Notes: a model not told the origin generated them from the sequence alone. DNA of 64,000 nucleotides from Caldicellulosiruptor obsidiansis OB47 (GCF_000145215.1 NC_014392.1:1186001-1250000), one strand, 5' to 3'; shown: positions 21,352-24,553, numbered from the stretch's first letter. Numbers and translations: made by a program.

Positions 21352-22230
21352 GTGAAGGTAGGAGTTCCAAATAGTTTTTGCTATGCTGGAATGGAAAACT
21401 TTTTTATAAGAGTTATACCAGAAGTCTTAGAAGATTCTCAAATAATCTTTTCAGGCAAGACAACAAAAGAAATCGTAGAATATGGTCTTAAAAATAGTTG
21501 TGATGAACTCTGTATTCCCGTAAAAATCTTTATTGGACATGTAGAGTATTTGATAAAACAAAACCAGGTAGATGCCTTGTTTTTACCACGCCTTGTGTCT
21601 GTATTGCCAGGCACCTATTCATGTCCCAAAATTATTGGTATTCCGGATATCATAAAATCTAATTATCATGGGATTGAATTGGTGGTACCTGAGATAAATT
21701 TAAGAAAAAAGCGGAAAATAATGTCGGAAGAAAGTATGAAAAATGAACAACTTTTTGATTTTCCTATGGCCAAGATAGCTAAAACCAAAAATATAATGGT
21801 ATTGGCTCATAGCTATGTTATTTTTGATGAATTTCTAAACAAAGGTATATTGGAAACTATAAAAAACGCAGGCTACAATCCTATTTATCCCGCATACTAT
21901 CGTTTTAATTCTTTTTATATTTCCTCTGATTTGCCGAAAGAATTCTTCTGGTCCTCTGCTAGGGACATCTACAATTATTTTGAGTGGGCAAGAAATAGTA
22001 CAAATGTTGATGGAGTAATATACCTTATGACATTTGGATGTGGAATTGACTCTATTTTGCAAGAATTAATAATGAAAAAATGTAATAAAATTGGACTACC
22101 TTATCTTTGTATAACTGTGGACGAGCATTGTGCTGGTGTGGGGATACAAACAAGAATAGAAGCGTATTTAGATATGATTGAATGGAGGAGTAATAGAAAT
22201 GAAAAAAGTTGCCTTCCCGCACATGGGTAA
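21352..22230 (+). CDS. DUF2229-type protein, HgdC-associated (first subunit of activase cluster)
   Basis: 292-aa protein of the CoA-enzyme-activase-associated DUF2229 family. Its N-terminus (VGVPNSFCYAG), KTTKEIVEYGL, DELCIPVKIFIGHVEYLI and FLPRLVSVLPGTYSCPKIIGIPD match that family. Conserved cysteines are Cys10, Cys50, Cys54 and Cys91, with more in TFGCGID and DEHCAGVGIQTR near the C-terminus; several could bind an iron-sulfur cluster. GTG 21352 is chosen because GGGAGA lies about 10 bases upstream; the frame is open to 21331. It overlaps the next gene by 32 bases. In many Firmicutes this domain, the next one and the activase form one giant protein; here they are three genes. Substrate is unknown. 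Confidence 0.75.
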   Translation: MKVGVPNSFCYAGMENFFIRVIPEVLEDSQIIFSGKTTKEIVEYGLKNSCDELCIPVKIFIGHVEYLIKQNQVDALFLPRLVSVLPGTYSCPKIIGIPDIIKSNYHGIELVVPEINLRKKRKIMSEESMKNEQLFDFPMAKIAKTKNIMVLAHSYVIFDEFLNKGILETIKNAGYNPIYPAYYRFNSFYISSDLPKEFFWSSARDIYNYFEWARNSTNVDGVIYLMTFGCGIDSILQELIMKKCNKIGLPYLCITVDEHCAGVGIQTRIEAYLDMIEWRSNRNEKSCLPAHG

Positions 22231-23293
22231 TCTTTTTGTTATTGCTAAGGCTCTTTTTGAAGAACTTGGATTTGAAGTGGTCATTCCTCCATATAACAAC
22301 AAAAGCGCTCTTGAAATTGGAAAGAGACTTTCGCCCGAATGTATTTGCCTGCCTTTTAAATTGAACATGGGGAATTTCATCCAAGCAATTGAAATGGGCG
22401 CAGACACCATTGTAATTTTTGGTGGCTGTGGACCATGTAGATTTGGATACTATGGTGCACTTGAAAAGGAGATTATCAAAGATTTGGGCTATGATGTGGA
22501 GATGATAGTCATTGAACCTCTTTTTTATGGTCTTAGGAATTTTTTGGAGCAGGTGAGTAAGATATTTGCAAGAAAAAATATAGCCAGTGTATTAAAGAGA
22601 GTGTATAGGTTAGCCAAAAAGGTAGATGGAATTGAGAAAAAAGTACATTTTTTAAGACCAAGGGAAATGGTTAAGGGAAGCGTAGATAAAATATATGAAA
22701 GGTTCAGAAAGGAAGCACTAAAAGTTTGCGGAATTGATCAAATGGAAAGATTGGTTGATACCACGAATGTTTTGCTTGACAACTTGTACATTGTAAATGA
22801 GAAGGTCAGAAAAATAGGAATTGTAGGAGAGATATACACCATTATTGATAGTTTTTCAAGCTTGAACATTGAAAAAATACTTGGTGATATGGGATGCGAG
22901 GTTGAACGAAATCTTTATATTTCCCAGTGGATTGATACACATCTAATATATCCAATATTTAAAAGAAAAGATCCAATTATTAAGAGATATTCTAAAGGTA
23001 TAATGCCAGCTTTAATTGGAGGCCACGCAAGAGAGACTATTTCTTATGCCAAATACTTTGCAGCCCAGAAATATGATGGAATATTGCATATTTTTCCTCT
23101 CACATGTATGCCAGAAATAATAGCAAAATCAGTATTAAATGGTATCAAAAATCAAATTAATATTCCTATCCTACACGTTGTAGTAGACGAGGTTGACAGT
23201 GACGTAGGTATCAAAACACGTTTAGAAGCTTTTTTAGACTTAATCGAAGCAAGGAGTGATAACGTTGAGCAAAGACTTCTTTCTTGGGATTGA
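22199..23293 (+). CDS. HgdB-like CoA-dehydratase-related protein (second subunit of activase cluster)
   Basis: 364-aa protein resembling the 2-hydroxyacyl-CoA dehydratase / double-cubane-cluster scaffold superfamily. It begins KKVAFPHMGNLFVIAKALFE. Four cysteines lie in two tight groups: LSPECICLP (Cys48, Cys50) and FGGCGPCRFGYYG (Cys77, Cys80). Another is in FPLTCMPEI. The C-terminal DEVDSDVGIKTRLEAFLD mirrors DEHCAGVGIQTRIEAYLD of the preceding gene, so the two subunits are probably distant paralogues. ATG 22199 follows TGGAGGAG. It overlaps both neighbours, implying stoichiometric co-translation. No CoA-transferase or dehydratase substrate genes are nearby, so a classical fermentation role is not supported. 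Confidence 0.75.
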   Translation: MKKVAFPHMGNLFVIAKALFEELGFEVVIPPYNNKSALEIGKRLSPECICLPFKLNMGNFIQAIEMGADTIVIFGGCGPCRFGYYGALEKEIIKDLGYDVEMIVIEPLFYGLRNFLEQVSKIFARKNIASVLKRVYRLAKKVDGIEKKVHFLRPREMVKGSVDKIYERFRKEALKVCGIDQMERLVDTTNVLLDNLYIVNEKVRKIGIVGEIYTIIDSFSSLNIEKILGDMGCEVERNLYISQWIDTHLIYPIFKRKDPIIKRYSKGIMPALIGGHARETISYAKYFAAQKYDGILHIFPLTCMPEIIAKSVLNGIKNQINIPILHVVVDEVDSDVGIKTRLEAFLDLIEARSDNVEQRLLSWD

Positions 23294-24257
23294 CATTGGT
23301 TCTGTTAGTACTAATGTAGTATTGCTTGACCAAAGTGACAGAATTATTGAAAGCATGTATCTCAGAACCCAAGGAAAGCCTATTGAAATTTTACAAAAGG
23401 CTCTTGGCGCATTGTACGAAAAGTATGGAGATAGCTTGAGGATAAAAGGAGTTGGAACTACAGGGTCAGGAAGGCATTTAGCATCGCTGGTGGTAGGAGC
23501 AGACATTGTAAAAAATGAGATAACTGCTCATGCAAAGGCTGCAATCTTTTTTGTACCTGATGTAAGAACTATAATTGAAATAGGTGGACAAGATTCGAAA
23601 ATAATCTTAATAAAAGATAGAATTGTTATTGATTTTGCTATGAATACAATCTGTGCTGCGGGAACAGGTTCTTTTTTGGATAGACAAGCAGAGAGACTTA
23701 ATATTCCGATTGAAAAGTTTGGTGAAATAGCAATAAAATCACAAAATCCTGTAAGAATAGCTGGCAGGTGTGCTGTGTTTGCTGAGTCAGACATGATTCA
23801 CAAACAGCAGCTTGGACATCCTTGTGAAGATATTCTTTTTGGGCTGTGTTTAGCTATGGCGAGAAACTATCTTGCCAATTTGGCGAAAGGGAAAAGCTTG
23901 GAAAGTCCAATACTGTTCCAGGGCGGTGTTGCGGCAAATATAGCAATGAAAAAGGCTTTTGAGCAACTTCTTGGAACACAAATTATAGTTCCAAAATACT
24001 ACAATGTTATGGGAGCAATAGGTATTGCCCTGCTGGCAAAGGAGAGGACAAAAGGTCTTATCACCAAATTCAGGGGTTTTGAAAGCATCAATGGTTGCAA
24101 GTTTGAGACAAAAGGATTTGAGTGTCGGGATTGTTCAAATTATTGCGAGGTTGTTGGTTTTTATAGTAATGGCAATTTAGTGGCAAGGTGGGGTGATAAA
24201 TGCCAAAAATACTCATCTAACAGGAATTATCATATTGAAAACTCTAAAAATCTGTGA
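23265..24257 (+). CDS. BadF/HgdC-type ATP-dependent activase (archerase)
   Basis: 330-aa ASKHA-fold ATPase that, in characterised homologues, is a homodimer with one bridging [4Fe-4S] cluster and fires low-potential electrons into a partner using ATP. Phosphate-1 is GIDIGSVSTNVVL, with GTTGSGR, IEIGGQDSK, then Cys130 (CAAGTGSFLDRQ) and Cys169 (GRCAVFAESDMIH), the two positions that hold the cluster. FQGGVAANIAMKKAF is adenosine-2. After about residue 285 there is an extra Cys-rich tail (ECRDCSNYCEVVG and a final Cys in GDKCQKY) not needed for an activase. TTG 23265 is favoured by AAGGAGTG eight bases upstream. It overlaps the previous gene by 29 bases. The ncRNA promoter lies in its 3' end. 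Confidence 0.85.
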   Translation: MSKDFFLGIDIGSVSTNVVLLDQSDRIIESMYLRTQGKPIEILQKALGALYEKYGDSLRIKGVGTTGSGRHLASLVVGADIVKNEITAHAKAAIFFVPDVRTIIEIGGQDSKIILIKDRIVIDFAMNTICAAGTGSFLDRQAERLNIPIEKFGEIAIKSQNPVRIAGRCAVFAESDMIHKQQLGHPCEDILFGLCLAMARNYLANLAKGKSLESPILFQGGVAANIAMKKAFEQLLGTQIIVPKYYNVMGAIGIALLAKERTKGLITKFRGFESINGCKFETKGFECRDCSNYCEVVGFYSNGNLVARWGDKCQKYSSNRNYHIENSKNL

Positions 24258-24269: not shown

Positions 24270-24553
24270 AGAAATAGCAAAACAAAGCTATGGCAGGAAC
24301 TCTGCCGTGTGCGTTACAAGATGGTGAAGTTCCAGGCCAACACCATCAAAAAAGGGAATCCGGAGTCCAATAGTGGCGCATAGGCTTCCCACCCAAGTAT
24401 ATCTTGGGTGACAAACAGGAAGTAATGCAAAGCTATTGGCAGGATACCCACCTGCTGAGGCAGGGTCTGGGAAACTCCCTGAGGACGGCATGGTGGAGTT
24501 CCTGACATGTAAAGAAGAAAGACCCAAAACCAAAAAGGGTCTTTATTTTTTTT
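24270..24553 (+). ncRNA. Highly structured non-coding RNA, class not recognised
   Basis: No plausible protein is encoded. Bases 24291-24510 are about 52% G+C (115 of 220 counted), against 11 of 50 just upstream. Helices found by eye: closing helix 24294-24302/24496-24504 (9 perfect pairs) continued by 24303-24307/24486-24490 with a 5-base bulge; 24310-24317/24422-24429 (8 pairs, one G-U); hairpin 24320-24326/24341-24347; hairpin 24354-24358/24386-24390; hairpin 24391-24397/24403-24409; hairpin 24451-24455/24460-24464. Loop bases 24367-24373 pair perfectly with 24433-24439, giving a pseudoknot. It has its own promoter and terminator. Hallmarks of RNase P, SRP RNA, tmRNA and 6S RNA are absent. 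A raiA-type or another Clostridia-specific class is possible but unproven. Confidence 0.8.
24518..24553 (+). terminator. Terminator of the structured RNA
   Basis: Perfect 8-bp stem AAAGACCC (24518-24525) / GGGTCTTT (24537-24544), an A-rich loop and a run of eight T residues (24546-24553). It lies 21 bases before the tcdA start. Confidence 0.88.

Follow-up and report, generated by a model that had tools for sequence, protein, structure and literature searches.

Three genes of the anaerobic thermophile Caldicellulosiruptor obsidiansis OB47, here called A, B and C, very probably encode an ATP-driven, low-potential [4Fe-4S] reductase of the benzoyl-CoA reductase/2-hydroxyacyl-CoA dehydratase family, as judged from their sequences. 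The kind of enzyme is known from PlsA; what is new is its split A-B-C form, which is widespread in anaerobic Firmicutes. The best overall explanation, to which we give about even weight, is an ATP-driven, PlsA-like split reductase whose most likely target is an acyl ester bond in a membrane lipid.

Gene organization and predicted cluster sites

The genes occupy positions 21352-24257 of the window, the whole 64,000-nucleotide stretch analyzed (C1:1186001-1250000 of the complete, 2.53 Mb host genome). All three lie on the + strand, and each start follows a GGAG or GGGAG ribosome-binding site. The nth gene (endonuclease III) is upstream of A, and a 6S RNA and then a ThiF/TcdA-like gene are downstream of C. 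In window coordinates, the features are:

21352..22230, +, gene A, 'Red1'-type reductase subunit: 292 aa, GTG start; DUF2229 and HGD-D C-terminus
21511, 21622 and 22039, +, codons of the putative cluster cysteines Cys54, Cys91 and Cys230 of A
22199..22230, +, A/B overlap, 32 bases
22199..23293, +, gene B, 'Red2'/PlsR-type reductase subunit, paralogue of A: 364 aa, ATG start (22199)
22346, 22436 and 23105, +, codons of the putative cluster cysteines Cys50, Cys80 and Cys303 of B
23265..23293, +, B/C overlap, 29 bases
23265..24257, +, gene C, BadF/HgdC-type activase ATPase: 330 aa, TTG start (23265)
23652 and 23769, +, codons of the putative bridging cysteines Cys130 and Cys169 of C
24063..24254, +, C-terminal tail of C, with Cys287 (24123), Cys290 (24132), Cys294 (24144) and Cys313 (24201)
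24296-24503, +, 6S RNA (Rfam RF00013, 87 bits), 38 bases past the stop codon of C

Reading frames, starts and overlaps agree with those of the initial annotation, and translation is likely coupled across both overlaps. The profile searches that it proposed return matches to DUF2229, HGD-D and BcrAD_BadFG. In A, Pfam identifies DUF2229 (8.7e-28) and an HGD-D C-terminus (6.6e-8); in B, it identifies part of the DUF2229 domain (7.2e-12) and a weak HGD-D end, below cut-off. Assignment of C as an HgdC/BadF-type activase is borne out by BcrAD_BadFG (Pfam, 3e-51) and by TIGR00241 (8.2e-61; 205.7 bits against a cut-off of 125.4), and C also matches the MbdQ activase (E 1.5e-40). The C-terminal segments of A and B had been described as paralogous; the paralogy stands but is not restricted to the C-terminus, the two proteins being paralogous end to end (hhalign probability 100%, E 2.7e-39, 311 columns).

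AlphaFold models of A (mean pLDDT 87) and B (mean pLDDT 91) have as their nearest solved folds HadBC, DCCP and BzdNO for A, and DCCP, HadBC, MbdON and BzdNO for B. All Foldseek matches to the PDB with E < 0.001 are to HadBC, DCCP, BzdNO or MbdON chains, with a probability of 1.00. With moderate TM-scores (0.43-0.61), the fold itself can be assigned safely, whereas its details cannot. On these models, A and B are dehydratase/reductase-type subunits with the fold of 2-hydroxyacyl-CoA dehydratase and benzoyl-CoA reductase subunits. The initial statement that the activase has no dehydratase partner is thus misleading.

Conservation of cysteines delimits the predicted metal sites. Exactly three are invariant in A (54, 91 and 230; 130-132 of 132 aligned relatives) and exactly three in B (50, 80 and 303; all 141 aligned relatives), whereas C has six (130, 169, 287, 290, 294 and 313; all 111 relatives). 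The cluster cysteines 130 and 169 noted originally in the activase are therefore both present and invariant, and their loss in homologues, which would have spoken against the assignment, is not seen in any of the 111 C proteins; those of A and B are likewise kept across the 132 and 141 relatives. The extra C-x2-C-x3-C tail of the activase is also real, but that set was incomplete: a fourth cysteine, Cys313, is invariant, and the tail is a family-wide feature found also in fused proteins. Alignments of C to solved HgdC-type activases stop short of this four-cysteine tail, which is probably a second metal site, with a predicted [4Fe-4S] cluster.

In BzdO and HadB, a [4Fe-4S] cluster is bound by three cysteines (95, 128 and 380), which leaves one of its irons free (PMC11971306). 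A and B have the same number in the same layout: two lie in the N-terminal half, and the third is close to the C-terminus. Six cysteines are required for a double-cubane site; the A-B pair is thus predicted to carry two [4Fe-4S]-type clusters, as does HadBC. The initial annotation had suggested either cluster type; [4Fe-4S] is retained as the predicted one, while a double-cubane cluster in A-B is rejected on cysteine count. The system could still be imagined as a double-cubane-cluster reductase, given the fold and activase superfamily that it shares with DCCP and DCCP-R and profile matches chiefly in the C-terminal half. However, the DCCP profile NF040772 gives A only 20.9 bits, over its last 63 residues, against a cut-off of 350, and does not match B. 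DCCP is a homodimer whose collected relatives have eight invariant cysteines, in contrast to three each in A and B, and we consider this identity highly improbable.

Two further relatives differ in context as well as in sequence. Class I benzoyl-CoA reductases (BzdNO/PQ, MbdONQP) resemble the present system in fold, in a three-cysteine [4Fe-4S] subunit and in their activase, but BzdN has a double-cubane cluster, unlike A and B, and no aromatic-degradation genes lie near the operon. None of the profiles TIGR02259, TIGR02261 and TIGR03192 reaches its cut-off (113, 79 and 91 bits against 578, 313 and 380). A 2-hydroxyacyl-CoA dehydratase with its activase, serving amino-acid fermentation, would have the fold and activase family of HadBC/HadI, and the likeness extends to a paralogous heterodimer, three cysteines per cluster and an activase of the homodimeric type. 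However, there is little similarity outside the C-terminal part: the subunits of such a dehydratase both match HGD-D over their length, whereas A and B do so at the C-terminus only (B below cut-off) and match PlsA and PlsR over their whole length. The four-cysteine activase tail is a further difference.

The genomic setting argues in the same direction. As first noted, no CoA-transferase, dehydrogenase or amino-acid fermentation gene lies beside the operon, and a search of the host genome finds no fused PlsA, no DCCP, no classical dehydratase and no HGD-D protein outside two A-B-C sets. A conserved dehydratase partner, which the initial annotation had named as evidence against its reading, is thus not found beyond those sets, although A and B are themselves of dehydratase type. 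A role in 2-hydroxyacyl-CoA dehydration is very unlikely indeed; the earlier preference for an ATP-driven, archerase-type reductase gains support from this lack of a fermentation context and from the fused homologues described below.

It is also conceivable that A-B-C feeds low-potential electrons to the metal center of another protein. ATP-driven metalloenzyme activators exist, such as the MCR activation complex (PMC12176620), and C scores 138 bits to the methanogenesis marker 15 model, below its cut-off. However, the reductase fold is complete in A and B, both three-cysteine sites with the free iron position are retained, and no conserved client gene adjoins the operon, making such an activator role improbable, if less so than either a dehydratase or a double-cubane enzyme.

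Relation to the fused PlsA-PlsR/Ger proteins

The same domains do occur as one giant protein in many Firmicutes, as the initial annotation had stated. Fused forms of ~1420 aa have the order activase-activase-(CxxCxxxC)-A-B, and a two-gene form consists of a ~980-codon activase-activase-A gene followed by a separate ~430-codon B gene. All the cluster cysteines found in A, B and C have counterparts at the matching places in the fused proteins, including those of B (NDACxP, GGCRA and PFACLP), and the C-x2-C-x3-C motif joins the activase to DUF2229. One fused protein aligns over 99% of its length with a protein of Listeria, at 56% identity, and PlsA/PlsR orthologues are known from that genus (PMC9702350). 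From architecture, size and this match, we identify the giant Firmicutes protein as PlsA-PlsR/Ger. A rarer fused form (~1330 aa, activase-activase-A-B; L222, L223 and L224) has lost the cysteines of the tail as well as the three of B, and is possibly a changed or one-cluster enzyme.

PlsA/PlsR comprises two activation and two reduction domains of the BCR/HAD family; PlsA-PlsR is encoded by two genes in Clostridium perfringens, and PlsA is a single ORF in enterococci and lactococci (PMC12838417). Expression in E. coli yields plasmalogens, which are vinyl ethers, in the case of PlsA-PlsR (PMC12838417), and alkyl ethers in the case of Ger (PMC11150832). The initial view of a wholly unknown substrate therefore overlooks that the giant relative acts by reducing ester bonds in membrane lipids (PMC12838417, PMC9702350, PMC11150832, PMC13274423).

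Like PlsA-PlsR/Ger, the present system brings together activase, Red1 (A) and Red2 (B) modules, here in one operon, and the two systems share the six cluster cysteines of Red1 and Red2 as well as the two bridging and four tail cysteines of the activase. The split system differs in having three genes rather than one or two, and a single stand-alone activase gene where the fused proteins join two activase domains in tandem to Red1. In a tree of activase plus A, in which branches are long, all 36 split rows are separated from all nine PlsA-like fused rows by a branch with 100% support, placing the split system outside the fused clade. Identity to the fused domains is 21-27% for A and B and 31-35% for C (the latter against fused forms with the tail). 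By these comparisons, split A-B-C is a separate sister clade of the fused proteins and not PlsA cut in three; given this deep branch and the low identity of A and B, PlsA/Ger activity cannot simply be transferred to it. Since some genomes, such as G112, hold both forms, their roles probably differ, being related but not identical.

HgdC/HadI and DCCP-R are homodimers with a bridging [4Fe-4S] cluster, in which ATP drives an electron into the partner protein. From characterized relatives of this kind, we infer cluster types, electron path and complex formation for A-B-C. Domain for domain, fused Act-Act-Red1-Red2 would correspond to C + C, A and B; because the two fused activase domains mimic a homodimer, one C gene suffices. 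Electrons from ferredoxin or a like donor would enter at the four-cysteine tail of C. The C homodimer would hold one bridging [4Fe-4S] cluster, bound by Cys130 and Cys169 of each chain, and hydrolyze ATP, and the resulting conformational change would pass single electrons of very low potential into an A-B heterodimer. Three cysteines in each of A and B would bind a [4Fe-4S] cluster that has a free iron site, and the substrate would be reduced at one of these two clusters. In the favored reaction, an acyl ester of a glycerophospholipid or of a membrane-spanning diacid lipid would be converted to a vinyl or alkyl ether. The complex is expected to be oxygen-sensitive.

Distribution in Firmicutes and candidate substrates

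DUF2229 is present in 278 of 300 phylum genomes, in open frames of ~1440, 980 or 330 codons. Fused proteins in this survey score E 1e-70 or better; the seven genus members that it covered all have split forms only, with best E values from 1e-47 to 1e-50. Split B occurs in about three quarters of the phylum genomes (115/150), often in two copies per genome. Comparison of gene neighbors across genomes, another of the checks first proposed, finds A-B-C in the same order in 74 of the 109 loci examined, and in 12 more on the other strand; such a fixed order, recurring throughout Clostridia, is not a chance arrangement.

Neighbors in other lineages include rapZ-yvcK/whiA, rodZ, greA-lysS, spoVA or glpP-glpK. 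These are housekeeping or spore genes that differ by lineage, so no common pathway emerges, and no lipid gene consistently adjoins the operon across the loci compared. Of 79 named loci, 31, from at least ten genera, have the operon behind genes of the spoVAC-spoVAD-spoVAE type, a set in which Desulfosporosinus is over-represented; in 26, a GerA-type (SpoVAF-like) gene precedes A by ~80 bases. These spoVA-linked operons and the window copy fall in different branches, and the spoVA genes of the host genome (C1:2495316-2497107) are far from the operon. For the linked sets (e.g., L126, L135, L152, L161, L173 and L183), a connection to the spore membrane or forespore is possible.

Two other neighborhoods are worth recording. 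Genes for glpP and/or glycerol kinase lie ~2-3 kb downstream of A-B-C in eight loci (L112, L114, L142, L146, L154, L165, L168 and L176); as evidence for a lipid substrate this was judged weak, the loci representing one lineage and the genes being 2 kb away. In L098, L099, L101, L103, L104 and L106, A-B pairs without an adjacent activase adjoin rodZ-like and glycoside hydrolase genes; an activase for them would have to be encoded at another place in the genome.

Acyl-ester reduction in membrane glycerolipids is the only experimentally known reaction of the nearest relatives, and for this reason a lipid ester is the leading guess for the substrate, at a likelihood that we set somewhat short of even. 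Several observations count against it: the clade separation, the inconstant neighbors, and two results from the literature. Ger2, a close paralogue of Ger, forms no ethers in E. coli (PMC11150832). Caldicellulosiruptoraceae are listed as carrying 'Ger', and C. owensensis is assigned Ger, but only ester-type diacids, with no ether or vinyl ether, are listed for it; vinyl ethers appear under two other strains (PMC13274423, Table 1). In genomes like the present one, which lacks a fused PlsA, DCCP and any other HGD-D protein, that 'Ger' listing would derive from the split genes only.

The main alternative is that the same machine acts on a non-lipid substrate, with a function distinct from PlsA/Ger and common to anaerobic Firmicutes. 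The split family would then be a second ATP-driven reductase, not a lipid ether synthase, with an unrecognized substrate and with one branch directly behind the spoVA operon in many spore formers. Full support for the split clade, its frequency and copy number across the phylum, the presence of both forms in some genomes, the lineage-dependent housekeeping or spore neighbors, and the fact that no ethers are listed for the Caldicellulosiruptor examined (PMC13274423) are all consistent with this alternative. Nevertheless, the nearest characterized relatives act on lipid esters, every cluster cysteine is identical, and no neighboring gene points to another substrate. A non-lipid substrate is a serious contender at roughly one chance in three, and a membrane-lipid ester is preferred.

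The distinction matters because PlsA/Ger homologues serve to predict which organisms make plasmalogens and membrane-spanning ether lipids, including the sources of lipid proxies for paleoclimate. A BLAST-based 'Ger' call in Caldicellulosiruptor rests on the separate split clade, and caution is warranted in predicting lipids from it. A 2026 study also reports extra PlsA homologues 'lacking' the activation domain in Bacillota genomes (PMC13274423); the present comparison suggests that each of these is subunit A of a complete three-gene system in which gene C supplies the activation domain. With two split sets and no fused enzyme, Caldicellulosiruptor is a clean test case.

Two copies in Caldicellulosiruptor

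The second complete A-B-C operon of the host genome (L007:8918-12029 in G000:C1) lies behind greA-lysS. It is present in all genus members, with 85% identity for A and 94% for B and C. The window copy is less conserved: between the host and genome G304, identity is 50% for A, 69% for B and 75% for C, compared to 71-77% for its neighbors nth, the tcdA-like gene and murJ. By this measure, A of the window copy evolves fast. Recent duplication is ruled out as the origin of the two operons, as the two sets fall in different clades.

The window copy occupies the same nth/ThiF site in 10 of the 11 other genus members examined and in one further genome of the family. It is confined to this family, as is the fixed neighborhood of nth, 6S RNA and tcdA-like ThiF gene. 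One of the 10 copies, in G303, is a wreck with all three genes frameshifted and a transposase gene upstream, and G302 has the 6S RNA and ThiF gene after nth, with only the last codons of C remaining. Together with the rapid evolution of A, and set against a second operon that is conserved and always present, this decay and deletion mark the window copy as the dispensable one of the pair.

Transposase-like genes have inserted into operons of both kinds: one, encoding 505 aa, beside the decayed window-type set of G303 (L087/L232), and another, of 491 aa, in the second set of G304 (L090), where it separates A from B. In G302, the 6S RNA survives despite the deletion of A-B-C.
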